From assembly GCA_017429265.1 (NCBI GenBank), contig JAFRPG010000031.1:1-64000 (forward strand): 64,000 nt of DNA, in the 5' to 3' direction. The translations under genes were made by a program, and so were the position numbers. Below, one piece after another: positions 49,644 through 63,616 of this stretch. Under the pieces are notes generated by a model. It searched no databases, was not told where the DNA came from, and was given only the letters and a program-made list of their open reading frames with translations. This stretch comes from Clostridia bacterium. Its GTDB lineage: Bacteria > Bacillota > Clostridia > Christensenellales > Aristaeellaceae. Positions within the stretch are counted from its first letter, which is position 1; the number at the start of each line of letters is the position of its first letter.

Positions 49644-50423
49644 ATGCGGGCGGAGATAGCCGGGACCACGGTCCATTACGAGCTGACGGGCAGCGGGGAG
49701 AAGCGAGTCGTGCTCCTGCACGGCTGGGGCTGCTCCGCCGCGCTGATGCGCTCCGCTGCGTCCGCGCTCGAGGACGGCATGCGCGTGCTGGCCGTCGATT
49801 TCCCCGCCTTCGGGGAGAGCGGCCGTCCGCCGGAGCCCTGGGGCGTGCCGGAGTACGCGGCCTGCCTGCGGGAACTGCTGGAGCGGCTGGACTTCCTGCC
49901 CTGCAGCGCGGTGGCCCATTCCTTCGGCGGGCGCGTGGCGATCTGGCTGGCCTCGGAGGACCCCTCCCTGTTTGAAAAGCTGGTCATCACCGGCGGGGCG
50001 GGCATCCGCAAGCCGCAGACCGAGGAGGGAAAGCGCCGCTCGGAGGCGTTTCAGCGGAAGAAGAAGCTGGCGGAGGCGCTGGGCCGGATCCCGCTGCTCA
50101 AAGGCACGGCCGACAGGTGCGCGGAGAAGCTCCGGCGAAAGTACGGCTCCGCGGACTACAACGCCCTTGACGAGGAGATGCGCAAAACCTTCGTGAAGGT
50201 CATCAGCCTCGACCTGGCGGACCGGCTGCCGTGCATCAAGCAGCCCACCCTTCTCCTCTGGGGAGACCGGGACACCGAGACGCCCCTGTGGATGGGCCAG
50301 CGGATGGAGCGGGAGATCCCCGACGCGGGCCTGGTCGTGCTCGAGGGCGGGACGCACTTCGCCTACCTCGAGCAGGCGGCGCGGTTCAATACGATTGTCA
50401 GACGATTCCTGATGGGGGAGTGA
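49644..50423 (+). CDS. Alpha/beta hydrolase next to MurF-like gene
   Basis: 259 aa. VVLLHGWGCSAALM, VDFPAFGESGRPP, nucleophile in AHSFGGRVA (SFGG, with His at the usual Gly position), LLWGDRDTETPL (acidic residue) and EGGTHFAYLE (His). Adjacent to a MurF-like and a Ddl-like gene, an arrangement I recall from other Clostridia, so it may act on a cell-wall-related ester or amide. Substrate unknown. ATG 49644; GGGAGGACGGGAAC upstream. Confidence 0.85.
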   Translation: MRAEIAGTTVHYELTGSGEKRVVLLHGWGCSAALMRSAASALEDGMRVLAVDFPAFGESGRPPEPWGVPEYAACLRELLERLDFLPCSAVAHSFGGRVAIWLASEDPSLFEKLVITGGAGIRKPQTEEGKRRSEAFQRKKKLAEALGRIPLLKGTADRCAEKLRRKYGSADYNALDEEMRKTFVKVISLDLADRLPCIKQPTLLLWGDRDTETPLWMGQRMEREIPDAGLVVLEGGTHFAYLEQAARFNTIVRRFLMGE

Positions 50424-50427
50424 ACGG

Positions 50428-51993
50428 ATGAACTGGAGCAGCATTGCGGCGGCGGTCGGCCTGGCGGTCGGCTGCGCGCTGGCCTCGCGCGTTCTCCTGC
50501 ACTATGACCAGCTGGAGAGCTATCAGTTCCGGGGCTATTTCCGCTCGCTGCGGCGCAACCGGCGGCGCGCGGTGCTGCCGGGTGCCATCCTGTGCGCGGG
50601 CGCCCTCCTCCTGTGGCTCTGCCTGCGGGGCACTTCCTGGGGCGGCTTCGCGGCCGGGCCGGTATTGATCGCCCTCGGCTGGGCCGTGCAGAAGCTGACG
50701 CGCCCGAAACAGGAAAAGAAAAAGTTCGCGGTCACGGCGCGCGTGAAGCGCCTCTTTGCGGCTCTGATCCTTGTGCTGCTCGCGGCGTGCCTGCTGACGC
50801 CGGAGGACTGGCGCTGGCCGATCCCCCTGCTCCTGCCCCTGTGGGTGGCTCTGGCCAAGGCCGTCGCCTGGCCGGTGGAGCGCGGCATCTATGAGCTGTA
50901 TTTCCAGAGCGCGCGGCGGATCCTGAAGGCCCGGTCCGACCTGATCAAAATCGGCATCACGGGCTCCTTCGGCAAGACCAGCGTGAAGTTCATCCTGAAC
51001 ACCCTGCTCTCGGAGGAGTACCAGGTGCTGGCGACCCCGGCGAGCTTCAACACGCCGATGGGCCTGACCCGGGTGATCCGGGAGAGGCTCCGGCCGGCGC
51101 ACCGGATCTTCCTGGCGGAGATGGGCGCGCGGCACCGCGGGGACATCCGCGAACTGTGCCGCCTCGTGCACCCGGACCACGGCGTGCTGACGAGCGTCGG
51201 CGCGCAGCACCTGGACACCTTCGGCACGCTGGAGCGGATCATCGAGACAAAGTATGACCTGATCCGGGCAATCCCGGCGGAGGGCATCCGCTTCTTCCCC
51301 GACGACGGGGACATCTGCCGCCGCCTCTACGACCGGACGGACGGCGAAAAGCGCCTGGCGAGCCTGACCCGGACGCAGGGTGCGGACGTCTGGGCGGAGA
51401 ACATCGCGGTCTCGGCCCGGGGCAGCAGCTTTGACCTGTGCACGGCGGACGGCGGGCGCGCGGCCTGCGAGACAAAGCTCCTCGGCGCGCACAATATCCA
51501 GAACATCCTGCTTGCGGCAAGCGTCTGCCTGGCTTTGGGCATGACGCTGCGGCAGGTCAGCCGCGGCATCGCGCGCCTGGAACCGGTGGAGCACCGCCTG
51601 CAGCTGATCGAGCGGCCCGGCGGCATCACCCTGATCGACGACGCTTTCAACTCGAACCCGGCCGGGGCTTCCCGGGCCCTCGACGTGCTGAAGGCCTTCC
51701 CGCCGCGGCGCATCATCGTCACGCCCGGCATGGTGGAGCTCGGCGCGCGGGAGGCGGAGTACAACCGCCGCTTCGGCGAGCAGATGGCCTCCTCGGCCGA
51801 CATTGCGATCCTGGTCGGGCCGCGGCACACCGCCCCGATCCGCGAAGGCCTGCTGGCGGCCGGCTTCCCGGAAAAGGAGATCCGCACCGTGCAGAGCCTG
51901 ACCGAGGCGGCGGAGGTCATGCGTGCCCTCGCCGTGCCCGGCGACACCGTCCTTTTCGAGAACGACCTGCCGGACAACTATTCCGAGACTTGA
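50428..51993 (+). CDS. Membrane-anchored MurF-like Mur ligase
   Basis: 521 aa. The N-terminal ~155 residues hold several membrane segments (AVLPGAILCAGALLLWLCL, FAALILVLLAACLL, IPLLLPLWVALAKAVAW), unusual for MurF. The Mur ligase core then follows: P-loop GITGSFGKTSVKFILNTLL, LAEMGARHRGDIRELC, LTSVGAQHLDTFGTLE, LGAHNIQNILLAASVCLALG and LIDDAFNSNPAGASRALDVL. It should attach an amino acid or dipeptide to a muramyl-like substrate at the membrane, coupled with the Ddl-like gene 17 bases downstream. It may be a second, specialised MurF rather than the housekeeping one. Confidence 0.88.
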   Translation: MNWSSIAAAVGLAVGCALASRVLLHYDQLESYQFRGYFRSLRRNRRRAVLPGAILCAGALLLWLCLRGTSWGGFAAGPVLIALGWAVQKLTRPKQEKKKFAVTARVKRLFAALILVLLAACLLTPEDWRWPIPLLLPLWVALAKAVAWPVERGIYELYFQSARRILKARSDLIKIGITGSFGKTSVKFILNTLLSEEYQVLATPASFNTPMGLTRVIRERLRPAHRIFLAEMGARHRGDIRELCRLVHPDHGVLTSVGAQHLDTFGTLERIIETKYDLIRAIPAEGIRFFPDDGDICRRLYDRTDGEKRLASLTRTQGADVWAENIAVSARGSSFDLCTADGGRAACETKLLGAHNIQNILLAASVCLALGMTLRQVSRGIARLEPVEHRLQLIERPGGITLIDDAFNSNPAGASRALDVLKAFPPRRIIVTPGMVELGAREAEYNRRFGEQMASSADIAILVGPRHTAPIREGLLAAGFPEKEIRTVQSLTEAAEVMRALAVPGDTVLFENDLPDNYSET

Positions 51994-52010
51994 GAAACGA
52001 GGGATTCCCG

Positions 52011-53225
52011 ATGGCGAAGATTCAGCTGGGCGTTTTCTTCGGTTCCCGCAGCTGCGAGCGCGAGGTGTCGATCATCTCCGCCGTGCAGCTGATGAACCAT
52101 GTGAACCCCGAAAAGTATGACGTGATCCCGGTCTACATCGCCCCGGACGGCCGCTGGTACACCGGCGACGCCCTGCGCAGCACCGCGTTCTTCACCGACT
52201 TCAAGGAGGAAAAGGTGCAGGAGGTCCATCTGGACCTGACCGCCGGCAGCGGGGCGCTGACCGCCTTCCGCCCGGGCAAGGGCCTCTTCGGCAAGCCGGA
52301 GCTGGTCATCGTGGCCCGCCTGGAGGTCTGCGTGCTGGTCATGCACGGTCTCCACGGCGAGGACGGCACCCTGCAGGGCCTGCTGGAGCTGGCCAACCTG
52401 CCCTACACCTCCACCGGCGTGGCGGGCAGCGCGGTGGGCATGGACAAGATCATGATGAAGCAGCTGTTCCGCGGCTGCGGCTTCCCGACGCTGCCCGGGC
52501 GCTGGTTCACCCGGGACAGCTTCCGGAAGAACGAGGAGGCCGCCGTCAGGGAGATCGAGGAGCTGGGCTATCCGGTGTATGTGAAGCCCGCGAACCTCGG
52601 CTCCTCCATCGGCGTGAGCCGCGCGGACGACCGGGAGGGCCTGCTGGACTCCCTGGAGCTGGCCTTTGAGTACGACCGCCGCGTCCTGATCGAGAAGGGC
52701 CTCGACCGCCCGATCGAGCTCAACTGCTCGGTCCTCGGCTTCGACAGCGAGACCGAGGCCTCCCCGGTGGAGATGCCCATCTCCCACGAGGAGACGCTGA
52801 CCTTCGCTGAGAAGTACCTCAGCGGCGGCGGCACCAAGGCCGGCGGCATGGCCAGCCTGAGCCGTGTCCTGCCCGCGCCGATCCCCGAGGACCTGCGCGA
52901 CCGCATCCAGTCCCTCTCGAAGGACATCTTCCGCGCTCTCGACTGCAAGGGCGTCGTGCGCATCGACTACATGTGGGACCGCGCCACGGAGGAACTGTGG
53001 ATCACGGAGATCAACACGATCCCGGGCTCCCTGGCCTTCTACCTCTGGGAGGCGGCGGGCGTCAAGTACAGCGCGCTGATCGACCGGATGGTGGAGTATG
53101 CGAAAAAGGCCCACAAGGAGAAGAACGATCGCAATTATGCCTATACCTCCGACATCCTCAAGGGCGTGAAGGTCGGGGCGAAGGGGGCCAAGGGCGCGAA
53201 GGGCGCCAAGGGAAGCAAGTTCTGA
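52011..53225 (+). CDS. D-alanine-D-alanine ligase family (ATP-grasp) with Ala-Lys-Gly tail
   Basis: 404 aa, longer than typical Ddl (about 310-370). LGVFFGSRSCEREVSIISAV, VMHGLHGEDGTLQGLLEL, STGVAGSAVGMDKIMMK, YPVYVKPANLGSSIGV, GVVRIDYMWD and TEINTIPGSLAFYLWEA are Ddl/ATP-grasp signatures. The last ~20 residues (AKGAKGAKGAKGSK type) form a basic low-complexity tail, likely to touch RNA, polyanions or the membrane. Pairs with the MurF-like gene before it. Whether the product is D-Ala-D-Ala or a variant depsipeptide cannot be read off. Confidence 0.88.
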   Translation: MAKIQLGVFFGSRSCEREVSIISAVQLMNHVNPEKYDVIPVYIAPDGRWYTGDALRSTAFFTDFKEEKVQEVHLDLTAGSGALTAFRPGKGLFGKPELVIVARLEVCVLVMHGLHGEDGTLQGLLELANLPYTSTGVAGSAVGMDKIMMKQLFRGCGFPTLPGRWFTRDSFRKNEEAAVREIEELGYPVYVKPANLGSSIGVSRADDREGLLDSLELAFEYDRRVLIEKGLDRPIELNCSVLGFDSETEASPVEMPISHEETLTFAEKYLSGGGTKAGGMASLSRVLPAPIPEDLRDRIQSLSKDIFRALDCKGVVRIDYMWDRATEELWITEINTIPGSLAFYLWEAAGVKYSALIDRMVEYAKKAHKEKNDRNYAYTSDILKGVKVGAKGAKGAKGAKGSKF

Positions 53226-53248
53226 CGGACGGAAGGGAGACGGTCATC

Positions 53249-54175
53249 ATGCGGAAGATCCTGATCATCCTGGCGGCGGTCCTGATCGCGGCCTGCCCGG
53301 CCTGCGCGGCGGCGGAGACGGTCGAAAGCGAGGAGAGCGGCATGTTTGTGTTCGCGGACGCGATCCCCGAGGCGGACCGCATGGTCATCAAGGAGAAGGG
53401 CACGGTCGAGCGCATCGCCTATCCCTCCCGCGACTACGCGGGTGACGGGGCGGAGATCACCAAGCACGCCGTCGTCTACCTGCCCTTCGGCTACAGCGCG
53501 GACGGGGAGTATGACGTGCTCGTGCTCTGCCACGGCGTCGGCGGCACGGAGGACGAATGGTCCTTCGGCCGGACCCTGAGCATCGGCCGGACCCTGACGG
53601 ACAACCTGATCGCCCGCGGCGAGGTCCGCCCGCTGATCATCGTCATGCCCAACGGCCGCTCCTGCGCGAACTGCTACGACACCAGCATGGAAAACGCCGC
53701 CGCGTTCTATGTCTTCGGCCAGGAGATCCGCAACGACCTGCTGCCGTGGATGGACAGCCACTACGCCACCTGGGCCGCGAAGCACCCGGACGATCCCGCG
53801 GTCCGCGAGCACCGGGCGATGGCCGGCCTGTCCATGGGCGGCATGCAGACGATCAACATCGGCCTGTGCGAGTGCCTGGATCTCTTCGCGTGGTTCGGTG
53901 CCTTCTCGGCGGCCCCGACCAGCTATGAGGCCTCCCGCATCAGGGCGGAGATCGCGAAGTTCCCGGACCTGGAGATCCGCTACTTCTACAGCATCTGCGG
54001 GCTGGAAGACGGCCTGTACTTCGCGGGCTCCGGCGCGGCGAAGAACCTCCCGGCCGTCTGCGACCGCTTCACGGAGGAGAACTGGCACTGGCAGGAGCGC
54101 CACGGCGGCCACGACTTCAACATCTGGAATCTCGGCCTGTACAACTTCCTGCGGATCTACGGCGGGGAGCGCTGA
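53249..54175 (+). CDS. Secreted esterase (CE1/feruloyl-esterase-like)
   Basis: 308 aa. Signal peptide MRKILIILAAVLIAACPACA. Esterase D/CE1-type fold: KHAVVYLPFGYSADGEYDVL, VLCHGVGGTEDEWSF, LIIVMPNGRS, nucleophile in MAGLSMGGMQTINIGL, and the final HGGHDFNIWNLGLYNFL with the catalytic His. This matches enzymes removing feruloyl or acetyl groups from plant xylan, found also with GH3 xylosidases. ATG 53249 with GGAAGGGAG upstream. Last gene of the metG run. Confidence 0.9.
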   Translation: MRKILIILAAVLIAACPACAAAETVESEESGMFVFADAIPEADRMVIKEKGTVERIAYPSRDYAGDGAEITKHAVVYLPFGYSADGEYDVLVLCHGVGGTEDEWSFGRTLSIGRTLTDNLIARGEVRPLIIVMPNGRSCANCYDTSMENAAAFYVFGQEIRNDLLPWMDSHYATWAAKHPDDPAVREHRAMAGLSMGGMQTINIGLCECLDLFAWFGAFSAAPTSYEASRIRAEIAKFPDLEIRYFYSICGLEDGLYFAGSGAAKNLPAVCDRFTEENWHWQERHGGHDFNIWNLGLYNFLRIYGGER

Positions 54176-54194: not shown

Positions 54195-54226
54195 GACAGA
54201 GGTCATCACCGGCCTCTGTCTTTTTT
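54195..54226 (+). terminator. Terminator after the esterase gene
   Basis: GACAGAGG pairs with CCTCTGTC across a 10-nt loop, followed by six T. Confidence 0.9.
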
Positions 54227-54498
54227 GCGGCTTCGCGGAAAATGCGGGAAAAGCAGAAGGGCGGGGATTCGCGCTCTGCGGAGCGCGCCAGGGGCTTTCC
54301 GATCGCCCCTGGACCCTTCGGGATCGCCTTTTCCTTGTTTGGTATTGGGCAAAGTAACGTTGATAAAACCTTGCAATACCAGAGCCTATCATGAACGGGA
54401 CGGCGCCGAAGGAGTCCAGAGGGCGATCGGAAAGCTCTGGTGCGCCCGCAGGCGCATTCCCTCACCAACGGAATTTCCCTAACTAAACGTGAAGAACC
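54227..54498 (+). repeat. Intergenic element copy 7 (272 nt)
   Basis: Ends GCGGCTTCGCGG and CGTGAAGAACC; arms and AT-rich centre present (a three-base loss in the right arm hairpin, AAAGCTCTGG). It starts exactly at the end of the esterase terminator. Flanking TCTTTTTT (54219-54226) and TCTTTTTG (54499-54506) match in seven of eight bases. Confidence 0.92.
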
Positions 54499-54507
54499 TC
54501 TTTTTGT

Positions 54508-54847
54508 GACTGTCCACGGAAAGCTCAGGGAAACCATATGGGAGGGGGTTCGCGCTCTGCGGAGCGCGCCAGGGGCTTTCCGATCGATCCGGGGCTGCCG
54601 CCCATTCTCCGCTGAAAACTGTCCCCCGGACAGTTTTCCGGGCGCTCCGAATCCCTGGACCCTTCGGGATCGCCTCTTTCTTGTTTGGTATTGGGCAAAG
54701 TAACGTTGATAAAACCTTGCAATTCCAGAGCCTATCATGAACGGGACGGCGCCGAAGGAGTCCAGAGGGCGATCGGAAAGCCCTCTGGTGCGCCCGCAGG
54801 CGCATCCCCTCATCAACAGAGTTTCCTGAGTGAACGTGAAAAGCTGT
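54508..54847 (+). repeat. Intergenic element copy 8 (340 nt = 272 + 68), module in left arm
   Basis: Follows copy 7 within ten bases, same orientation. The 68-nt module at 54586-54653 interrupts the left-arm hairpin CCAGGGG...CCTGG, on the opposite strand relative to copies 1 and 5b, at the equivalent point of the arm. The length is exactly that of copies 6 and 7 plus 68. No gene is seen in 54227-54860. Confidence 0.92.
54586..54653 (-). repeat. 68-nt nested hairpin module (other copies 249-316 and 38467-38534)
   Basis: All three copies are 68 nt, begin GATTCGGAGCGCCCGG and end GGCAGCCCCGGATC (here on the minus strand). Two contain the palindrome AAAACTGTCC-GGG-GGACAGTTTT; the copy at 249-316 has a slightly shorter version. 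Each replaces the same bases next to GATCGG in an arm of the larger element. Confidence 0.92.
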
Positions 54848-54860
54848 CCTTTTGCATGCG

Positions 54861-54886
54861 AAAACCCGCCGCTTCGGTGCGGCGGG
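54861..54886 (-). terminator. Terminator of the polysaccharide/cytoskeleton-like operon
   Basis: On the minus strand CCCGCCGC pairs with GCGGCGGG around ACCGAA, followed by TTTTC. It lies 16 bases after the last gene. Confidence 0.85.
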
Positions 54887-54902: not shown

Positions 54903-55235
54903 TCAGCGCACCCGGTATTTCGCCTCGATCCGGCGGTAGCCGAAAATCAGCAGCGGGACGCCGACAAAGGTGCCCGCGGCGATGACGATGCCTGCGGCAC
55001 CCGGATGGAAAACGCCGACGACCGTGCCGGCCCAGTAGATGAGAGAGAAGACGATCCACAGGATGCCGTTGGCCCGGTTGTAGGCACGGACATCGGTGAT
55101 CTCCTCCTTCTTCACCGTGATGCCGGACCAGAACCACATGGGCTCCTTCCGTCGCCAGGCGTAGACCCCGATGCCGGTGATCAGCAGACTGCAGGGGACC
55201 ATCACGACCAGCCAGAACACGGTTTCCACGGGCAT
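54903..55235 (-). CDS. Small membrane protein of unknown function
   Basis: 110 aa with three probable transmembrane helices (VFWLVVMVPCSLLITGIGVYA; GILWIVFSLIYWAGTVVGVF; GIVIAAGTFVGVPLLIFGY). Between helices one and two is WFWSGITVKKEEITDVRAYNRAN, a pattern I associate with uncharacterised Clostridial membrane proteins. ATG 55235 has GGAGG only one base upstream, so GTG 55229 may be the true start. Last gene of the operon, 14 bases after the large actin/Hsp70-fold gene. Confidence 0.75.
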   Translation of the reverse strand: MPVETVFWLVVMVPCSLLITGIGVYAWRRKEPMWFWSGITVKKEEITDVRAYNRANGILWIVFSLIYWAGTVVGVFHPGAAGIVIAAGTFVGVPLLIFGYRRIEAKYRVR

Positions 55236-55249
55236 GCCTCCTTCCGCCC

Positions 55250-58200
55250 TCAGGCCTGCAGCATCGACAGGGCCATGTCCTCGACGATCAGGGAGAAGGC
55301 GCCGGACTCGCTCGCGTGGATACGGGACGCGGCGGCGTTCAGCAGGCTTTCGGCGGTCTGCGAAAATCCGCCCGCGGCCGTGAAGAAGCCTGGGAACAGG
55401 GCCTCGGCGGGGCCCGGCATGGCCTGCCGGAAGGCGAGGAGGAAGTTCGCGGCCAGCTGGGCGGGCGCCAGGACGCCGTTGAGATTGGCCAGGGCGGGGC
55501 TCTGCTCGGCCTGCATCGGCAGGCAGGCGCCGGTGACGGCCTCCATGCCCTGCGCGCCGGACATGACCAGCGGCAGGCTGACGGTCGGATGCCCCTGCGT
55601 CATGGCGACCCGGGGAAACTGCGAGAGGTTCCACTGCGTCGCGCTGTCGAAGGTCTTCAGCATCCGCGGGGCGCGGCCGCAGATGACCAGCGGAAGTTCC
55701 TGCGGCAGGTGGATGGACATGGTGCTGTCCCAGCGGAGCTTTTCGAGCATCAGGCCGGCGCCGGTCAGCCGCAGGGCAAAGGTCAGCAGCAGCAGGGCCT
55801 GGATCCGGGATGGGCGCATGGCGGCGGAGCAGGCGGCGCCGATCACCGCGGCGGTCTCGCGGAACTCCGGCCCGAGCAGGGTGTCGAGGGTCCGCTGGAG
55901 GAGGGAGAAGGCGGCGGGGTCGGTGCCGGCGCGGTCGACCGCCCCGACGGCCTGCTGAATGCGGCGGGTGTGCGGCCCCAGCGGGGTGCCGGGCGCCAGC
56001 CAGAATTCGCCCTTGAGCCACTCGGGCCGCAGGCTGAAGGCCGTGGCCAGGAAGCCGGTCATGCCGCCGCCGAGCTCAAGGCTCAGGGCCGGACGCTCCA
56101 TGCCGCGCAGCCAGACGGCGGCGCAGGTGGAGGAGGCTCCGATATCGACCAGGGCAAAGGCCGCCGACAGGGTCTGGCTCCGCTGCCAGACGCAGAGGCT
56201 CCACAGGCGGCGGACGGCCTCGGGCTGGGCGGGGGAGGAGAGGCCGCAGGCGCGGACGGTCTGCTCCGCCACGGCGGCGAATTCCGCGCCGATCGCCTGG
56301 CGCTGGGCGTCGCTGAGCCCGTCCGGCAGGACGAGGCGCAGGCGCAGGCCGCTCACCCCGCGCAGGACGGCGGCCAGGGACAGGAGCACGGCGCTCTCCC
56401 GGAGGAGGAGCCTGCGCGCGCGGCGGGTCCGGCCGTCGGTCTGCCAGAGCAGGTCGCTCACGGCGTCCGCGTCCCCGGCCTCGTCGGCGATGCGCCCGTG
56501 CTCGAAGGGCAGGGGATCGTCGGCGGTCTCGTCGAGGAGGACGCAGGGCGGGAGCAGCCCCTGAACGGGGCCGACCGGCAGGGGTTCGCGGGCGGGCTCC
56601 GGATCGCTGCGCAGGAGGATGCGCCACAGGCCGGGCAGCTGGAGCGGGGATCCGTTGACGGCCAGCTTGAGGGCGCTCGCGCCGAGCTCGACCGCGGCCG
56701 TGACCTCCCCGCCGCCGGGCACGGAGCGCTGGCGGTCCGCGGCGATCAGCGCGCCGATCGAGACCGGGCCCCGGCTCAGGGCGATCACGTGCGGATAGGA
56801 GTCGACACAGTGGACACTGTCCCCGTCCGCGCCCTGTTCGATCTCCGTCCAGACGCCGCGGTGCAGGCAGGCGCAGCGGATCTCCCCGCGCAGGCTGAGC
56901 CACCAGGCGTGCCAGGAGCGGGCGGGCAGGGCCACGTTGGGCCAGAGGGAGACCGACGGGGCCTCCTCCAGCAGGATCTGTTCGTCAGAGGCATAGACGC
57001 GGGTGAGGGTGACGTCGCCGCGCCCGCGGAGCGTGAAACCGGCCTCGATGCGGCTGCCGGGCAGGAGGCTGAAGCGCAGGGTATCGACCGCGAGGAGCGG
57101 CTGATCCCAGCTGTGCCGGGCCATGTGCTCCGCCAGCGCCGGGGAGACGGGCGGCAGGACGGTCCGGTTTTCCTGCGGGTGGAGCTGGATCCGGCAGAGG
57201 TCCTCGAGCACCGCGTCGCCGAGCAGGCCGCCGCGGACCAGGGTCAGCCGGTCGGAGAAGGCGCATTCGGCCAGGGCCGCGTCGTCGCCGAGGGCCTCGC
57301 GGAGCAGGTACTTCTGGGAGGGGGAACCGTCGAGGGGGAAGGCAAAGCTCAGCGGATCGTGGGCGGAGGTGACGCCCTCGCGCAGGGTCCCGATCCAGGT
57401 CTCCGCCTCGCGGGCGGCCCGGGTGTCGAGCAGGTTTTGCCGCTCGTCAAGCCACTGCTGAAGGCGCTCGGCGGCCTTTTTGCAGAAGGTCCCGGAGCAG
57501 CTCTCCAGTCGGCTCAGCTCTCCGAGGAGGACGGTCAGGGTGTCCCGCTGCTCCTGGGCGTGATCGGGCAAGGGCTCCACGCCGAGGCGGCTGTTCAGGC
57601 GCGCGAAGGGGACCCCGCGCCAGTACCAGATCCCGTCCTCCGGCAGGCGGGGCAGGGAGGCCTGCTTCCCGAGGGCGGCGAGGAGGGCGTTTTTGCCCGG
57701 AGCGTGCGTCTCTCCGATAAAGCTGAGACCGTCGAAAACCTCCTCGTCCCGCAGGCAGACGGTGGTGAGGACGCGGGCGCGCCAGCTGTTGGACTCGGGG
57801 CCGGTCAGCATGCAGTCGGCGGTGCGGTTCTCCAGGGCGGAGATGTCCTCGGCGAAGCGCTGGGCCTGCGGGCCGGCGAGGGCGTGGAGGCGGGTGATCA
57901 GGACGCGCCGCTCCGGCTCGGTGAGCCAGGGCAGCGGGTCGCCGAAGCGGGAGGCCGTGTCGAGCCAGCGGATCCGGGCGGGCAGCTGACCGCGCAGGGC
58001 GGGCGGCTGAACGGCGGGGAGGATCCCCCAGGCCGGGTCCGTGCGGCCGAGGACCTCGCGCCGCCCCTCCGTGTTCCAGAACACGAGTGAGACCCGCTCC
58101 GTCCCGAGAGCTTTCAGGAGGGCACCGGTCAGCGGGGAGGAATCCGCGCGCAGGGTCTCCACGGTCAGGCGGCCCTCGGGGTACAGGTCGGAGAGCAGGG

Positions 58201-58387
58201 CAAACGCCAAAAGGCCGCGCCAGGCGGCTTCCTCGGGCTGTTCATCAGCTGTCTCGGGCGGGGCGGGCGGCAGGGCGGCGGCGGTCAGCCGCGCCAGGGA
58301 GTCGCCCGCGCGGATCATGCCGACGCCCTCGTCCAGCGGCACCGTCTCCTGCTCGTCCGGCAGGAGGATCAGGGTTTCGTCGCTCAT
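55250..58387 (-). CDS. Large protein with C-terminal actin/Hsp70-fold (ASKHA) ATPase, SrfB-like
   Basis: About 1045 aa, no signal peptide. The N-terminal ~550 residues are unrecognised. The C-terminal half shows the spaced ASKHA motifs: phosphate-1 VTAAVELGASALKLAVNG (about 564), a helix pair with LVLPDGLSDAQRQAIGAEF, phosphate-2 AFALVDIGASSTCAAVWLRG (about 746) followed by LELGGGMTGFL, and an adenosine-loop-like PLVICGRAPRML (about 900). The arrangement resembles SrfB-type proteins encoded beside tubulin-like (PF13809) proteins. ATG 58387 is preferred (GGAGG seven bases upstream). Directly downstream of the tubulin-like gene, so a two-component filament or scaffold is plausible. Function unknown. 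Confidence 0.75.
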   Translation of the reverse strand: MSDETLILLPDEQETVPLDEGVGMIRAGDSLARLTAAALPPAPPETADEQPEEAAWRGLLAFALLSDLYPEGRLTVETLRADSSPLTGALLKALGTERVSLVFWNTEGRREVLGRTDPAWGILPAVQPPALRGQLPARIRWLDTASRFGDPLPWLTEPERRVLITRLHALAGPQAQRFAEDISALENRTADCMLTGPESNSWRARVLTTVCLRDEEVFDGLSFIGETHAPGKNALLAALGKQASLPRLPEDGIWYWRGVPFARLNSRLGVEPLPDHAQEQRDTLTVLLGELSRLESCSGTFCKKAAERLQQWLDERQNLLDTRAAREAETWIGTLREGVTSAHDPLSFAFPLDGSPSQKYLLREALGDDAALAECAFSDRLTLVRGGLLGDAVLEDLCRIQLHPQENRTVLPPVSPALAEHMARHSWDQPLLAVDTLRFSLLPGSRIEAGFTLRGRGDVTLTRVYASDEQILLEEAPSVSLWPNVALPARSWHAWWLSLRGEIRCACLHRGVWTEIEQGADGDSVHCVDSYPHVIALSRGPVSIGALIAADRQRSVPGGGEVTAAVELGASALKLAVNGSPLQLPGLWRILLRSDPEPAREPLPVGPVQGLLPPCVLLDETADDPLPFEHGRIADEAGDADAVSDLLWQTDGRTRRARRLLLRESAVLLSLAAVLRGVSGLRLRLVLPDGLSDAQRQAIGAEFAAVAEQTVRACGLSSPAQPEAVRRLWSLCVWQRSQTLSAAFALVDIGASSTCAAVWLRGMERPALSLELGGGMTGFLATAFSLRPEWLKGEFWLAPGTPLGPHTRRIQQAVGAVDRAGTDPAAFSLLQRTLDTLLGPEFRETAAVIGAACSAAMRPSRIQALLLLTFALRLTGAGLMLEKLRWDSTMSIHLPQELPLVICGRAPRMLKTFDSATQWNLSQFPRVAMTQGHPTVSLPLVMSGAQGMEAVTGACLPMQAEQSPALANLNGVLAPAQLAANFLLAFRQAMPGPAEALFPGFFTAAGGFSQTAESLLNAAASRIHASESGAFSLIVEDMALSMLQA

Positions 58388-58403
58388 GGTCATTCCTCCG
58401 GCG

Positions 58404-60218
58404 TTACCGGCAGGCGCGCTGCACGGCCTCGATCAGGGAGAGGGCGGACGTCGGGCCCTCGGCGTTCTCGCGCAGGACGCGCTCCTGGGCGCTGTGCGCG
58501 GGGAAACGGGTCCAGGGCCAGGCGGTCAGCATCAGCTGGGCCTGGCGTCCGCGGGCCTTCGCGTCGAGACCGTCCAGCCCGCAGAGGGCGTCCAGCCAGG
58601 CGGCGGGCCAGAGGACCTCCGCGGAGCTGTCGCCCGTCACGCCGTCGGCGAGCGGGGGCTGGCGGCGGGCCTCCTCGGTCACGGCCCGGGCGAGGTCCTG
58701 CGCGGCGCGGTCGGCCCGGCCCTCGAGGTCGGCGAGGCGGCGCTCCATGCGGCGGAGACGGGCCCGCGCCTGGTCGATCCGGGACATGTCCTCGGGCTTG
58801 GCCACGGTCACGGCCTTACGGATGCGGCGGTCGGCCTCCTCGGCCTGGGCGCGCACCTCCTGGGCTTCCGCGCGGGTCCGGGATGCGACATCGCGCAGCA
58901 TCTCGCGGCGCAGGCGGCCGCCCTGCTGCTTGTCCAGTTCTTCCTGGACGCGCAGCTCCTCCTCCAGGCGCAGGCGCGACTGTTCCTCCTCGCGCAGGGC
59001 GAGCTCGGCGTCGGTGTCCTGCATGTCGTGGCGGTGGATGACCGTCACCTGGGCCATGCCGCTCTCGCGGATGTCGTGCTCGAGCAAGGCAAGCTGACCG
59101 GCGATCCGCAGGACTTCGTCATAGTGCTCCGCGGCGGCCTTCCGGGCCGCGAGCAGGGGCGGGGTCGGCCGCAGGACATAGGGCAGGCTGCGCTGCAGGT
59201 CCCGCAGGAAGCAGGCGCCGGTGTGCGCGATCAGGGCGGCCCGTTCGACCTGGACCGCGGAGACTTCGCGCTCGGAGGCGCCGGTGCCGCGGCGCGGCAG
59301 GTACTGGGCGATCCAGGGCGTCATCCGGTCGCGCAGGCCGGACTTCTCTCTCAGCACGCGCAGGGCCTCCGGGGCGTAGTACCCGGTCCAGAGCGCGTCG
59401 AAGCGGATCAGGGAGTCGAGCGCGCGGCCCCAGCTTTCGCCGCCGGGATCGAGGACCTGCCAGTTCAGGCGGGTCGGCGCGCGGAAGGCGAAGGTGCCGG
59501 TCTCCCCGGCGAGGAAGGAGTCCAGGGCGCGCAGGCAGATCAGGTGGAGCAGGTGCGGGCCGTCGCCCTCGCTGCGGCAGTCCTCCGGCAGCCCGGCCAG
59601 GGCGAGGAATCGCGGCCGGAGGTCGGTCTCCGCGAGGAAGCGGCGCACGGGACCGGAAGGGTCGGCCTGGCTGAGACCGGTGATCAGCGCGCAGCCGAGC
59701 GGACGGCCGGCGAGACGCGGGGCCAGGGCCCTCACGCCGGCGTTCCCAACGCTCTCGGCGAGGGAGGCGAGGAGCATGACCGGCGTCTCCGGCGCGTCCT
59801 CCAGCACCTCGCACAGGGCGTCGTCGGGGTCGGTCAGGCGCTGCTCCCAGGCGGCGCTGGCGGCCCTTGCGGAGGCGGTCATCGGCGGCGCGCTGACCTC
59901 GGCCGCGGGCAGCAGGGCCTGCAGCAGGGCGCGGTCGTCCTCGCTCCGGCTCAGGGAGAGCAGGGGCTCGGCGGGGGCGCCTGTCCGCAGGCTGAGATCG
60001 GGCTCAAGGCCCGTGTGCGGGGTCCGGCCCCAGGCGGCGCGGAGCTCCCGGTACGCCCGGTACAGGGCTTGCAGGCGTTCCCCGGCGCCCTCGGGCGGGA
60101 AGAGCAGGCTGACGCGCAGTTCGTCCCCCCGCGGCAGCGCACCGCAAAAGGCGCAGCAGACCAGGGCCTCCGCGATGCGCGCACCGGCCGTGCCGATGCA
60201 GACGAGGGAAACGTTCAT
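58404..60218 (-). CDS. Tubulin-like (PF13809-type) coiled-coil protein
   Basis: 604 aa. The N-terminus MNVSLVCIGTAGARIAEALV then CCAFCGAL and DELRVSLL resembles the first Rossmann strand, glycine turn and helix of Tubulin_2 proteins. Residues about 146-170 (VMLLASLAESVGNAGVRALA) fall where the GGTGxSG GTP-loop is expected, but the loop is altered. A long coiled coil covers about 400-515 (EEEQSRLRLEEELRVQEELD onward). The C-terminal ~85 residues are helical and ordinary. Starts at ATG 60218 with AAAGGCGG upstream, 22 bases after galE; 16 bases before the actin/Hsp70-fold gene. Family assignment is inferred by eye. Confidence 0.65.
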   Translation of the reverse strand: MNVSLVCIGTAGARIAEALVCCAFCGALPRGDELRVSLLFPPEGAGERLQALYRAYRELRAAWGRTPHTGLEPDLSLRTGAPAEPLLSLSRSEDDRALLQALLPAAEVSAPPMTASARAASAAWEQRLTDPDDALCEVLEDAPETPVMLLASLAESVGNAGVRALAPRLAGRPLGCALITGLSQADPSGPVRRFLAETDLRPRFLALAGLPEDCRSEGDGPHLLHLICLRALDSFLAGETGTFAFRAPTRLNWQVLDPGGESWGRALDSLIRFDALWTGYYAPEALRVLREKSGLRDRMTPWIAQYLPRRGTGASEREVSAVQVERAALIAHTGACFLRDLQRSLPYVLRPTPPLLAARKAAAEHYDEVLRIAGQLALLEHDIRESGMAQVTVIHRHDMQDTDAELALREEEQSRLRLEEELRVQEELDKQQGGRLRREMLRDVASRTRAEAQEVRAQAEEADRRIRKAVTVAKPEDMSRIDQARARLRRMERRLADLEGRADRAAQDLARAVTEEARRQPPLADGVTGDSSAEVLWPAAWLDALCGLDGLDAKARGRQAQLMLTAWPWTRFPAHSAQERVLRENAEGPTSALSLIEAVQRACR

Positions 60219-60240: not shown

Positions 60241-61257
60241 TCAGGTGCGGTAGCCCATGGGGTTCATGGACTGCCAGTGCCACGCGTCGCGGCACATGTC
60301 CTCCAGGGTGTGGGTCGCCTCCCAGCCGAGCAGGCGCTTCGCCTTGGACGGGTCGGCGTAGCAGGCCGCGACGTCGCCCGGGCGGCGGGGCGCGATCTCG
60401 CAGGGGATGCGGATCCCGTTCACACGCTCAAAGGTACGGACGATGTCCAGCACGCTGTAGCCCACGCCGGTGCCGAGGTTGATGATCTCGCAGCCGGTGT
60501 GCTTTGCCGCGTAGTCGCAGGCGCAGACGTGGCCGCGGCCCAGGTCCACCACGTGGATGTAGTCGCGCACGCCGGTGCCGTCGGGGGTGTCGTAGTCGTT
60601 GCCGAAGACGTTCAGATGATCGAGGCGTCCCGCCGCCACCTGGGTGATGAAGGGCATGAGGTTGTTCGGGATGCCCGCGGGGTCCTCGCCGATGCGGCCG
60701 CTCTCGTGCGCGCCGATCGGGTTGAAGTAGCGCAGCAGCACGACGCTCCACTCCGGGTCCGCCTCGCACACGCTGCCGAGGATCTTCTCGATCATGTACT
60801 TCGTCCAGCCGTAGGGGTTGGTGCAGCCCTTGCAGAACATGTCCTCCCGCAGCGGGACCTCGTCCGGCACGCCGTAGACGGTGGCGGAGGAGGAGAAGAC
60901 CAGGCGCTTCACCCCGTGGGCGGCCATGGTCTCGCAGAGGGTGAGGGTGGTGTCGAGGTTGTTGCGGTAGTAGCGCAGGGGCTGACGGACGCTCTCGCCC
61001 ACGGCCTTCAGGCCCGCGAAGTGGATCACCGCGTCGATCCGGTTCTCCTCAAAGATCCGGTCCATGGCGGCGCGGTCGCTCACGTCCGCCTCGTAGACGG
61101 GGACGGACCTGCCGCTCAGCTCCTCCACCCGGCGGACCGCCTCGGGACAGCTGTTGACGTAGTTGTCGACGACGATCGCCTCATGGCCCGCGGCCAGGAG
61201 CTCGAGGCAGGTATGGGTGGCGATGTATCCGGCGCCGCCGGTGAGCAGGATGTTCAT
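60241..61257 (-). CDS. galE: UDP-glucose 4-epimerase
   Basis: 338 aa, usual GalE length. NAD-binding MNILLTGGAGYIATHTCLEL, FAGLKAVGESV, active-site Ser in FSSSATVYG, and the YxxxK motif in NPYGWTKYMIE, then RYFNPIGAHESGRIGEDP and GTGVRDYIHVVDL. It interconverts UDP-glucose and UDP-galactose for polysaccharide synthesis. ATG 61257 is chosen, with AAGGAG eight bases upstream; ATG 61263 is too close. Confidence 0.96.
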   Translation of the reverse strand: MNILLTGGAGYIATHTCLELLAAGHEAIVVDNYVNSCPEAVRRVEELSGRSVPVYEADVSDRAAMDRIFEENRIDAVIHFAGLKAVGESVRQPLRYYRNNLDTTLTLCETMAAHGVKRLVFSSSATVYGVPDEVPLREDMFCKGCTNPYGWTKYMIEKILGSVCEADPEWSVVLLRYFNPIGAHESGRIGEDPAGIPNNLMPFITQVAAGRLDHLNVFGNDYDTPDGTGVRDYIHVVDLGRGHVCACDYAAKHTGCEIINLGTGVGYSVLDIVRTFERVNGIRIPCEIAPRRPGDVAACYADPSKAKRLLGWEATHTLEDMCRDAWHWQSMNPMGYRT

Positions 61258-61280
61258 CTGCATGTCTCCTTCTGTCGGTC

Positions 61281-62177
61281 TCAGAGCTTCTCCGGGTACT
61301 CGCCGGCCTCGTGCAGGCGGCGGAGGGCTTCCTGCACCAGGGGCTTGTCCTCGCGGTAGGTGACGCCGAACCACTTGGCATGGGTGTGCAGCACGCGGAC
61401 GGAGAGGCCGTCCTCATGCATCAGCTCGTCGATCAGGGTGGGAAGGACGTACTCGCACTTGAGTTCGTCCGCGTGCGCGCGCAGGAAGGCGCCGAGCTTC
61501 TCCTCCGCGCGGGCGAAGAACCAGGGGGTCAGGCCCCAGAAGTTCATCGACACGGGGGTGTCGTGCGCATAGGGCTCGCTCGGGGTCTCCGGGGCGAAAT
61601 CGCGGATCTTCCCCTCGCTGTCCCAGCCGAGCTTGTAGGTTTCGGTGACCGAGGCCAGGCATCCCTGCGCGTCGGTCGAGCAGACGCCGCGGGTCACCGT
61701 GCCGTGGTCGGAGAGGGTGTTGCCCAGATCGTAGGCCACCATGCAGGCCGCCTTGCCCTCCATGCCGCGCAGGGCCTCGGCGATGCAGACGAAGGCGTCC
61801 TTGCCGTAGTAGTCGTCGGCGTTGACCACCGCGAAGGGGCCGTTGACGACGTCCCTGGCGCAGAGGACGGCGTGCACGGTGCCGTAGGGCTTGGTGCGGT
61901 CCGCGGGTGGGGTGAAGCCGCCGGGCAGGCTGTCGGCCTCCTGGTAGGCGTAGGCGACCTCGCACTTCTGTCCGATGCGGTCGCCGACCAGGCTGCGGAA
62001 GCGCTCGTCCATGCTCCTGCGGATGACGAACACCACGCGGTCAAAGCCGGCGGCGAGCGCGTCGTGGATCGTGTACTCCATCAGGATCTCCCCGTGGGGG
62101 CCGAGGCCGTCGATCTGCTTGTCTCCGCCGTAGCGGGAGCCGAGACCGGCCGCCATGATGAGCAGGGTAATGGCCAT
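61281..62177 (-). CDS. Sugar-1-phosphate nucleotidyltransferase (NTP_transferase)
   Basis: 298 aa. NTP-transferase signature LLIMAAGLGSRYGGDKQ, product-binding FAVVNADDYYGKDAF, then LTPWFFARAEEKL. It differs from GalU in the AAGLGSRYGG loop (GalU has GxGTRxxP). This type, widespread in gut bacteria, lacks an assigned substrate; UDP- or dTDP-sugar formation is likely. ATG 62177 with AAAGGAGG upstream, between the sugar phosphotransferase and galE. Confidence 0.88.
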   Translation of the reverse strand: MAITLLIMAAGLGSRYGGDKQIDGLGPHGEILMEYTIHDALAAGFDRVVFVIRRSMDERFRSLVGDRIGQKCEVAYAYQEADSLPGGFTPPADRTKPYGTVHAVLCARDVVNGPFAVVNADDYYGKDAFVCIAEALRGMEGKAACMVAYDLGNTLSDHGTVTRGVCSTDAQGCLASVTETYKLGWDSEGKIRDFAPETPSEPYAHDTPVSMNFWGLTPWFFARAEEKLGAFLRAHADELKCEYVLPTLIDELMHEDGLSVRVLHTHAKWFGVTYREDKPLVQEALRRLHEAGEYPEKL

Positions 62178-62179
62178 GG

Positions 62180-63553
62180 TCAATCCTCCTTTGATTCGTC
62201 CTGGGTAAAGGGCTCGGTGGAGTCCTTCTTGAAAAACACGGTCAGCGTGCGGAAGATCAGCCGCACGTCGGTCCAGAGCGAGAACCGCTCGATGTACATG
62301 AGGTCGAGCATCAGCTTGTCCTCGGGACTGGTATTGTACCGGCCCTCGATCTGCGCATAGCCGGTCAGGCCCGCCTTCATCTTTTCGCGGTAGACGAAGG
62401 TGGGCAGGGCGGTCTTGTAGCGCTCCACGTTGCTGAGCATCTCCGGGCGCGGGCCCACGAGGGTCATGTCGCCGATGAGGATGTTCCAGAACTGGGGCAG
62501 TTCGTCGAGGCGCAGGCGCCGCAGCACCCGGCCCAGGCGTGTCACACGCCGGTCGCCCGCGCGGACGGAGTGCTCCGCCGAGCCCTTGCGCATGGTGCGG
62601 AACTTGCGGATCACGAAGCGGTGGCCGCCGAGGGTCACGCGCTCCTGGCGGAAGAGGACCGGCCGCCCGTCCGTAAGCAGGATCGCGAGGGCGATCAGGC
62701 CCATCAACGGGGAGAGCAGGATGAGCACCAGGGCGCTGATCGAGATGTCCATCAGCCGCTTCACGATCCGCTGGCCGAGGGTCATCTTGTGGTAGTCCAT
62801 CTCGAGGAAGGGCGCGTCGTCCACGATCAGCGGCTGGGCCGCGGAGAGCATGATGTCCTGCAGGTCGGCCTTGCACACGACGTCGCGGCGCAGGTCGTAG
62901 CAGATCCGGTAGAGGGTCAGCCGGGCCTCGTCGGGCACGCCCGCGATGAAGACGACCTCGGCCTGCTCGATGCGGGCGGGGAGGTCCGGGTCGGTCCACA
63001 GGGCCACGTCGCGCACATGCCACTGCAGGCGGTAGCGGCCGATCTTTTCGCTGAGGCTGGCCTCGTCCGCGGGGTCGCTGAGGATCAGCAGGCAGGCCCG
63101 CGGCAGGTGCAGGCGGAAGTACAGGAAGTTGCCGAAGCGCACCATCCCGTAGATGAACACGGCCTGCAGCACGACGCAGAGCAGCAGCAGCGGAAAGTCC
63201 GGCCCGAAGAAGACCAGGCGGTCGTTGCGGTTCGGGTTCACGTTCATGATCTGCAGCTGGAGGTAGGTCACCAGGCAGGTGAACAGGCTCCCGAGGGCCA
63301 TCGAGGAGGTGATGGGCCGGCTCTTCTTGCGCCCCACGTCATAGCCGCCGTAGATGTGCAGCATGGCGATGCAGGCCGCCAGCCAGGTCAGCAGGGTCGT
63401 GGCGAGGGTGCGGCTCGGGCGGCGGAGCGCCTCGTTGTGGACGCTCATCAGCGCGAAAAAGATCAGGCTGAGCCCGAGATAGGTCAGCAGCCGCAGCATG
63501 CTGACCAGGATTTCGGAGCGGTGACGCCGCAGACTTGCGCGCGCCTTTCCCAT
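62180..63553 (-). CDS. Undecaprenyl-phosphate sugar phosphotransferase (exopolysaccharide initiator)
   Basis: 457 aa. N-terminal part with about four membrane helices (residues 17-140) and a degenerate Rossmann middle domain. The C-terminal bacterial sugar transferase domain begins KRLMDISISALVLILLSPLM. It contains PVLFRQERVTLGGHRFVIRK, FRTMRKGS, LRLDELPQFWNILIGDM, LVGPRPE and KAGLTGYAQIEGR. It moves a sugar-1-phosphate onto the lipid carrier at the start of capsule/exopolysaccharide assembly. ATG 63553. First gene of the operon, three bases before the nucleotidyltransferase. Confidence 0.94.
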   Translation of the reverse strand: MGKARASLRRHRSEILVSMLRLLTYLGLSLIFFALMSVHNEALRRPSRTLATTLLTWLAACIAMLHIYGGYDVGRKKSRPITSSMALGSLFTCLVTYLQLQIMNVNPNRNDRLVFFGPDFPLLLLCVVLQAVFIYGMVRFGNFLYFRLHLPRACLLILSDPADEASLSEKIGRYRLQWHVRDVALWTDPDLPARIEQAEVVFIAGVPDEARLTLYRICYDLRRDVVCKADLQDIMLSAAQPLIVDDAPFLEMDYHKMTLGQRIVKRLMDISISALVLILLSPLMGLIALAILLTDGRPVLFRQERVTLGGHRFVIRKFRTMRKGSAEHSVRAGDRRVTRLGRVLRRLRLDELPQFWNILIGDMTLVGPRPEMLSNVERYKTALPTFVYREKMKAGLTGYAQIEGRYNTSPEDKLMLDLMYIERFSLWTDVRLIFRTLTVFFKKDSTEPFTQDESKED

Positions 63554-63587: not shown

Positions 63588-63616
63588 ATGATACCACGGC
63601 GCCGGGCCCGCGTCAA
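63588..63616 (-). promoter_or_regulatory. Promoter of the polysaccharide/cytoskeleton-like operon
   Basis: On the minus strand TTGACG and TATCAT are separated by 17 bases, 35 bases before the phosphotransferase start. A GC-rich inverted repeat (GGGCC...GGCCC type) surrounds the -35 region. Confidence 0.7.

Follow-up and report, generated by a model that had tools for sequence, protein, structure and literature searches.

A tubulin-like protein and an actin/Hsp70-fold partner encoded in an apparent glycan-initiation operon of a Clostridia genome

Introduction

Why should two genes whose products resemble cytoskeletal proteins lie directly behind genes that start surface-glycan chains? The question is raised by positions 1-64000 of contig C5 of a 3.02 Mb Clostridia metagenome-assembled genome (genome label G000), a 64,000-nucleotide stretch called the window below, in which a tubulin-like gene (product P0001) and an actin/Hsp70-fold, or ASKHA, gene (product P0002) follow genes for a sugar phosphotransferase, a nucleotidyltransferase and galE. 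Close relatives in public records are Clostridia or Clostridiales metagenome-assembled genomes, several of them from ruminant gut samples. We find that the two proteins have these folds, share ancestry with FtsZl1/ASKHA cassettes, have lost the nucleotide-binding motifs, are linked to the same operon in four genera and are fused in one of them. With evenly balanced confidence, we suggest that the pair branched off from the Clostridia FtsZl1 (Tubulin_2)/ASKHA cassette and works in the cytoplasm, probably without need of nucleotides, as a scaffold for the sugar transferase or as its regulator.

Folds of P0001 and P0002

Both open reading frames (ORFs) start and stop cleanly, and they contain the following domains and loops.

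58404..60218, minus strand: tubulin-like P0001, 604 aa, derived Tubulin_2/FtsZl1 homologue (AlphaFold2 model, fold match, hhalign)
59481..60218, minus strand: tubulin/FtsZ-fold domain, P0001 residues 1-246 (VIA-align)
60162..60197, minus strand: T1-equivalent loop IGTAGARIAEAL (canonical kin IGGTGNKILES; alignment)
59736..59765, minus strand: T4-equivalent loop SLAESVGNAG (canonical kin SIFGGTGASG), signature lost (alignment)
58677..59012, minus strand: coiled-coil helices, P0001 residues 403-514, about 112 residues (AlphaFold2 model)
55250..58393, minus strand: actin/Hsp70-fold (ASKHA) protein P0002, 1047 aa (AlphaFold2 model, MreB match)
55499..56713, minus strand: ASKHA-fold domain, P0002 residues 561-965 (structure comparison)
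56657..56698, minus strand: phosphate-1-equivalent AAVELGASALKLAV (canonical kin ALAVDFGSNATTV; alignment)
56108..56155, minus strand: phosphate-2-equivalent ALVDIGASSTCAAVWL (canonical kin NMDVGGGTTDLSVWL; alignment)
55658..55687, minus strand: adenosine-loop-equivalent VICGRAPRML (canonical kin ICVAGGGGQFL; alignment)

Single-sequence searches of Pfam, NCBIfam, PADLOC and PDB sequences gave nothing usable for either protein, and AlphaFold2 models were made from family alignments. In the P0001 model (predicted local distance difference test, pLDDT, 88.2; predicted template modelling score, pTM, 0.84), residues 1-246 match M. tuberculosis FtsZ 6ym1 best (Z 14.9, 3.1 Å, 181 residues; VIA-align), followed by CetZ, PhuZ and tubulins (tubulins at Z about 12). 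Foldseek was ambiguous, with weak E values of 0.03-0.1 and FtsZ rows at probability near 1 among Rossmann-fold rows, an ambiguity that VIA-align resolved. The models thus support the tubulin fold claimed in an earlier note on this DNA, which had also correctly seen a GTAGARIAEAL glycine turn near the start (residues 9-19) and a coiled coil of about 115 residues, close to the 112 modelled. All of P0001 after residue 246 is helical in the model, with helices at 262-290, 314-386 and 403-514 plus C-terminal helices. The T1 loop of the window protein reads IGTAGA (canonical IGGTGNK), and the signature GTP-binding loop, GGGTG(S/T)G in general and GGTGASG in canonical kin, is absent.

P0002, previously estimated at about 1045 aa, yields a model (pLDDT 86.9, pTM 0.72) with a two-domain ASKHA fold at residues 561-965, for which MreB 1jcf is the best match (Z 20.2, 287 residues, 3.7 Å) and MamK, actin and Hsp70 are further matches (actin and Hsp70 at Z about 18); Foldseek finds Hsp70 at E 1e-5. 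The predicted structure agrees with the actin/Hsp70 fold that had been proposed. The three ASKHA-like motifs described earlier do lie in the second half of the protein, at residues 566-579, 747-762 and 903-912, all inside the modelled fold, but none of them is intact: ELGAS (in VELGAS) stands for DFGSN, DIGASSTC for DVGGGTTD and ICGRAP for VAGGGG.

Kinship with FtsZl1/Tubulin_2

P0001 has no match to PF13809 (Tubulin_2). Canonical relatives from the same family (loci L034 and L035) have the loops IGGTGNK and GSIFGGTGASG and match PF13809 at E about 1e-5, and L030, a locus already of the sugar-operon layout, does so at 4.4e-6 (26.6 bits); these three intermediates score 24.4-26.6 bits, the cut-off being 27. 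In hhalign the P0001 profile of the window genus aligns with the canonical-relative profile over 529 columns (100%, E 5.6e-39). With HMMER the canonical tubulin profile does not recover P0001 in its own genome, and hhalign of either profile with E. coli FtsZ alone was not significant, that protein being too distant at the sequence level. As judged from these comparisons, the kinship of P0001 to PF13809 proteins is visible only through intermediates and profile-profile alignment, so that the proposal of a divergent member of the PF13809 pair stands as kinship through relatives and fails as a direct match. Because P0001 lacks the signature loop and does not reach the hidden Markov model cut-off, the system is outside the curated FtsZl1/Tubulin_2 definition; it is a real, conserved and unusual variant of that kind.

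The domain order of P0001 fits the FtsZl1 description (PMC2875224, Makarova and Koonin 2010), namely an N-terminal FtsZ-like domain, a long coiled coil and a helical C-terminus, and P0001 is homologous to canonical members of the same bacterial family. That paper associates von Willebrand factor A (vWA) proteins with FtsZl1, and canonical relatives of P0001 sit with a lipoprotein bearing a vWA-like motif. Unlike FtsZl1, P0001 has lost the signature GTP-binding loops, its genes are tied to glycan-initiation genes, the window operon has no vWA partner and the window genome no canonical lipoprotein, and P0001 is tightly paired (once fused) with an ASKHA protein, which goes unmentioned in the available part of PMC2875224.

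SrfB (PF07520) had been put forward in the earlier note as the ASKHA-type partner of Tubulin_2 proteins. We found no PF07520 hit at E<10 for P0002, L034 or L035 and none at E<1 for L093, L095, L097, L092 and L078, and no relevant paper came up when the literature was searched for SrfB with tubulin; with no such match in the window protein or its canonical relatives, SrfB identity is rejected.

Conservation and gene order

Homologues of both proteins occur in the same order in 10 of the 11 other genomes of the genus, so the pairing is more than chance (in G003 the ASKHA gene is divided over two contig ends). The ASKHA protein is present in 104 of 300 genomes of the family; within the order, outside the family, it was found in f23 members only, and at class level the canonical tubulin profile finds two more in 391, both with an adjacent ASKHA gene. 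Adjacency of the pair extends to the distant Clostridia families f23, f50 and f73.

The loci read in detail show two layouts (TUB, tubulin-like; EPS, sugar phosphotransferase; NTP, nucleotidyltransferase). One is lipoprotein-membrane protein-TUB-ASKHA in genera g14, g15 and g58, with a shorter form, lipoprotein-TUB-ASKHA, in f23, g70 and f73; the four-gene set, its lipoprotein carrying the vWA-like motif, is probably the ancestral cassette. The vWA-like call refers to a MIDAS-like (metal ion-dependent adhesion site) motif only, with no vWA hit in Pfam, and no homologue of the lipoprotein was found in the eight genus genomes searched, the window's G000 included. The other layout is EPS-NTP-galE-TUB-ASKHA in g1 (the window genus), g25 and g72, and in g51 with the pair fused. 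Here galE adjoins the pair in every locus whose contig extends far enough, allowing for genes split or missed by the similarity search (such as NTP in L021 and L022 and galE in L087). A neighbourhood survey, which had been recommended as a check, thus finds the pair together and beside sugar phosphotransferase genes over four genera. Upstream flanks are common to at most 3 of 21 loci, and a close EPS orthologue (at least 57% identity) occurs only in genomes with the pair, although in G013 and G019 it sits away from it.

The g51 fusion is a single ORF of about 1740 aa in which TUB (E 2.8e-36, residues 10-646) is followed by ASKHA (E 5.5e-184, residues 694-1719), and most g51 genomes among the matches listed have an open frame of about 1720-1830 aa. 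Such a fusion is good evidence that the two proteins work as a complex.

Some individual loci have features of their own. The ASKHA gene at G013:C27:31571-34531 (L033) has three in-frame TAG codons and an open tubulin-like partner, and may be a pseudogene or reflect stop reassignment. The f23 loci L108, L109 and L110 are of the canonical lipoprotein-TUB-ASKHA form, and in L109 a putative Sel1-like-repeat protein is encoded downstream. In g53 (L093:8465-9238) and g70 (L095:12122-12892) the ASKHA gene is followed by one for a membrane protein of about 258 aa, which may be a further part of the canonical cassette.

The window operon

In the window the pair belongs to a minus-strand run of six genes, whose intergenic gaps are, in order, 2, 17, 22, 10 and 14 bases.

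63588..63616, minus strand: promoter-like site TTGACG-17-TATCAT, upstream of the operon (motif scan)
62180..63553, minus strand: polyprenyl-phosphate sugar phosphotransferase, EPS_sugtrans-like, 457 aa (PF02397 1.2e-58)
61281..62177, minus strand: sugar nucleotidyltransferase, 298 aa (PF00483 1.2e-5, above cut-off)
60241..61263, minus strand: galE, UDP-glucose 4-epimerase, 340 aa (TIGR01179 438 bits)
58404..60218 and 55250..58393, minus strand: P0001 and P0002, as above
54903..55235, minus strand: small membrane protein, 110 aa, sixth and last gene ahead of the terminator (PF19540, weak)
54861..54886, minus strand: terminator-like stem CCCGCCGC-ACCGAA-GCGGCGGG then TTTT (direct reading)

The sugar phosphotransferase scores 287 bits with TIGR03025, slightly below the cut-off of 296, and the small membrane protein 19.4 bits with PF19540 (cut-off 27); the latter has no homologue in the neighbouring loci surveyed. 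P0001 and P0002 are adjacent as described earlier, but the gap from stop to start is 10 bases, and the 16 bases previously given apply only with the second ATG (58387) as start. A promoter-like site and a terminator-like stem were both seen where the earlier note had placed its promoter and terminator. The promoter-like site has 10 of 12 consensus positions, two such sites having been found against 0.5 expected, and the stem was read directly from the sequence, the terminator scan, which demands 5 T in 8, having left it unlisted. Spacing, promoter-like site and terminator-like stem are consistent with the one apparent operon that had been proposed for the pair and the three sugar genes.

Loss of the nucleotide-binding motifs

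The GGTG of the T4 loop is lost in all g1 and g72 members, in the g51 fusions and in G019, is kept in L030 and L078 and reads SGTG in L043; apart from outgroups, no more than a few g25-type members have it intact. In the genomes that lost GGTG the phosphate-2 loops have decayed too, in some more than in others. Since the distant members f23, g53 and g70 have intact loops, the eroded state is derived. A tree of the ASKHA proteins, made by a quick method with Shimodaira-Hasegawa-like approximate likelihood ratio test (SH-aLRT) support and having long branches and some unsure joins, puts all sugar-linked members together with G019 in a single group (support 87), next to the canonical g14/g15/g58 group (97). 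By plain parsimony on it, the EPS link and the T4 state each take two changes, and several independent T4 losses are more plausible than regain, because a regained GGTG loop is unlikely. With T1/T4 and ASKHA loops eroded in most derived members, a strongly GTP- or ATP-driven filament is unlikely in the window genus; the filament-like system suggested by the earlier note has its motifs in the right places, but their degeneracy makes it doubtful in the nucleotide-driven sense.

Within the genus P0001 is 30-53% identical, P0002 30-45% and galE 77-86%, the first two having changed far faster than galE. Both P0001 and P0002 genes stay open, and in almost every comparison the changes by codon position rise as p2<p1<p3; selection was read from these counts because 53% identity, the value for the closest pair, already looks too low for dN/dS.

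A proposed role and its alternatives

In the lineage leading to the window genus, the pair would have lost its lipoprotein and membrane partners and become the tail of an operon for making UDP-sugars (nucleotidyltransferase, galE) and loading the first sugar on polyprenyl phosphate (sugar phosphotransferase), and the GTP- and ATP-binding motifs, whose loss is itself observed by sequence comparison, would have gone afterwards. In the window species P0001 and P0002 would form a tight cytoplasmic complex, a step supported by the g51 fusion. Its tubulin domain, coiled coil and large ASKHA protein would make up a structural platform, probably nucleotide-independent, that would bind the membrane-bound sugar phosphotransferase and set the place or the activity level of glycan-chain start.

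The logic would be like that of FtsZ and its actin-fold partner FtsA in placing septal wall synthesis, an analogy from general knowledge that serves as a guide only. FtsA-FtsZ positions a wall-synthesis machine, and there too tubulin-fold and actin-fold proteins are encoded side by side; an ordinary FtsZ, however, is present in the window genome, P0002 carries an N-terminal part of 560 residues, and the nucleotide motifs of P0001 and P0002 are eroded. The Wzz/BY-kinase regulators of polyprenyl-phosphate sugar transferase operons are likewise encoded with glycan-initiation genes that they could control, but their folds are unrelated to those of P0001 and P0002. Since an FtsZ gene, two MreB genes and Wzz genes lie elsewhere in the window genome, the pair comes on top of them, and replacement of FtsZ or MreB by it is rejected.

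Several points weigh against the scaffold proposal. The docking on the sugar phosphotransferase is one that we infer, the AlphaFold2 models are single chains and silent on assembly, and eroded motifs are not proof of lost nucleotide binding. The single operon is deduced from how the genes are spaced and from one promoter-like match. Downstream, 10 of 21 loci have a gene family in common, which indicates some residual chromosomal synteny, and a shared chromosomal neighbourhood could account for part of the linkage; the sugar trio lacks an adjoining pair in G013 and G025 (the G025 trio being of lower identity), and G019 has the pair and no adjoining trio.

The separated trios of G013 and G025 and the partly conserved downstream flank would suit a pair that acts like its canonical FtsZl1 kin, in membrane remodelling, as PMC2875224 proposes for FtsZl1 (Makarova and Koonin 2010), or in another envelope process, its place among sugar genes reflecting inherited neighbourhood and shared expression with no functional link. 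We consider this unlikely, though deserving of some weight, because the five-gene order is kept over four genera even though the pair is down to about 28-30% identity and the upstream flanks are reshuffled, the canonical lipoprotein is absent from the genus genomes searched, and the close EPS orthologue tracks the pair. Fully kept folds, and some g25 members that hold GGTG and DxGGG while already in the sugar operon, would also fit a filament pair still dependent on GTP and ATP through unusual pockets; with T4 reduced to ESVGNAG and phosphate-2 to GASSTC in the window, and T1, phosphate-1 and the catalytic Asp/Thr positions also altered, likewise in most of the clade, this is distinctly improbable.

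It is very improbable that the genes are decaying remnants heading for loss: their fast divergence, the motif loss and the TAG codons of the G013 ASKHA gene point that way, but nearly every surveyed genome has the two ORFs, of about 600 and 1050 codons, in intact form, confidence in the predicted folds is high, and p2<p1<p3 holds. Equally little credence goes to P0002 being a chaperone of the Hsp70 kind, or the ATPase of a defence system, whose client or sensor would be the tubulin-like protein, an idea that the Hsp70 chains among its fold matches recommend; against it stand the want of a PADLOC match for either window protein, the vertical spread with a biosynthetic operon, with no island context seen, and the eroded ATP motifs.

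Flanking features

Directly behind the operon terminator, window positions 54221-54850 hold dispersed-repeat copies in tandem, a 132-nt block being repeated at 97% with spacing 346. A 261-base probe gave 99 BLAST pieces genome-wide, more than 40 of them long, marking a genome-wide repeat family. At 49644-54175 on the plus strand is a row of ORFs that by sequence judgement are alpha/beta hydrolase, Mur-ligase-like, D-Ala-D-Ala-ligase-like and esterase-like. Outside the window, some 10 kb upstream of the operon (L114:10796-19232; G000:C5 about 73.8-82.2 kb) lies a group with a Wzz/tyrosine-kinase-like gene, a gene for a 1969-aa secreted repeat protein and one for a further exported protein, preceded by two ABC peptide-exporter-like genes.

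Significance

In its strongest form the scaffold reading, to which we give somewhat less than an even chance, is that bacteria have converted a tubulin-actin pair into a nucleotide-free structural complex, fused in one genus, whose task is to organise the enzyme with which surface-glycan chains start. No relevant paper came up when the literature was searched for a tubulin-like protein with exopolysaccharide, and a cytoskeleton-derived scaffold dedicated to polysaccharide initiation would be an undescribed kind of system as far as the literature searched shows. Genome context led to the prediction of FtsZl1/Tubulin_2 systems in 2010, and the literature searched gave no function for them; a pair locked in a glycan-initiation operon offers a concrete, testable pathway. 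That the GTP and ATP sites have decayed in parallel while the folds were kept is a natural test of what tubulin- and actin-fold proteins are capable of without nucleotide cycles, and the g51 fusion provides a single construct for structural work.

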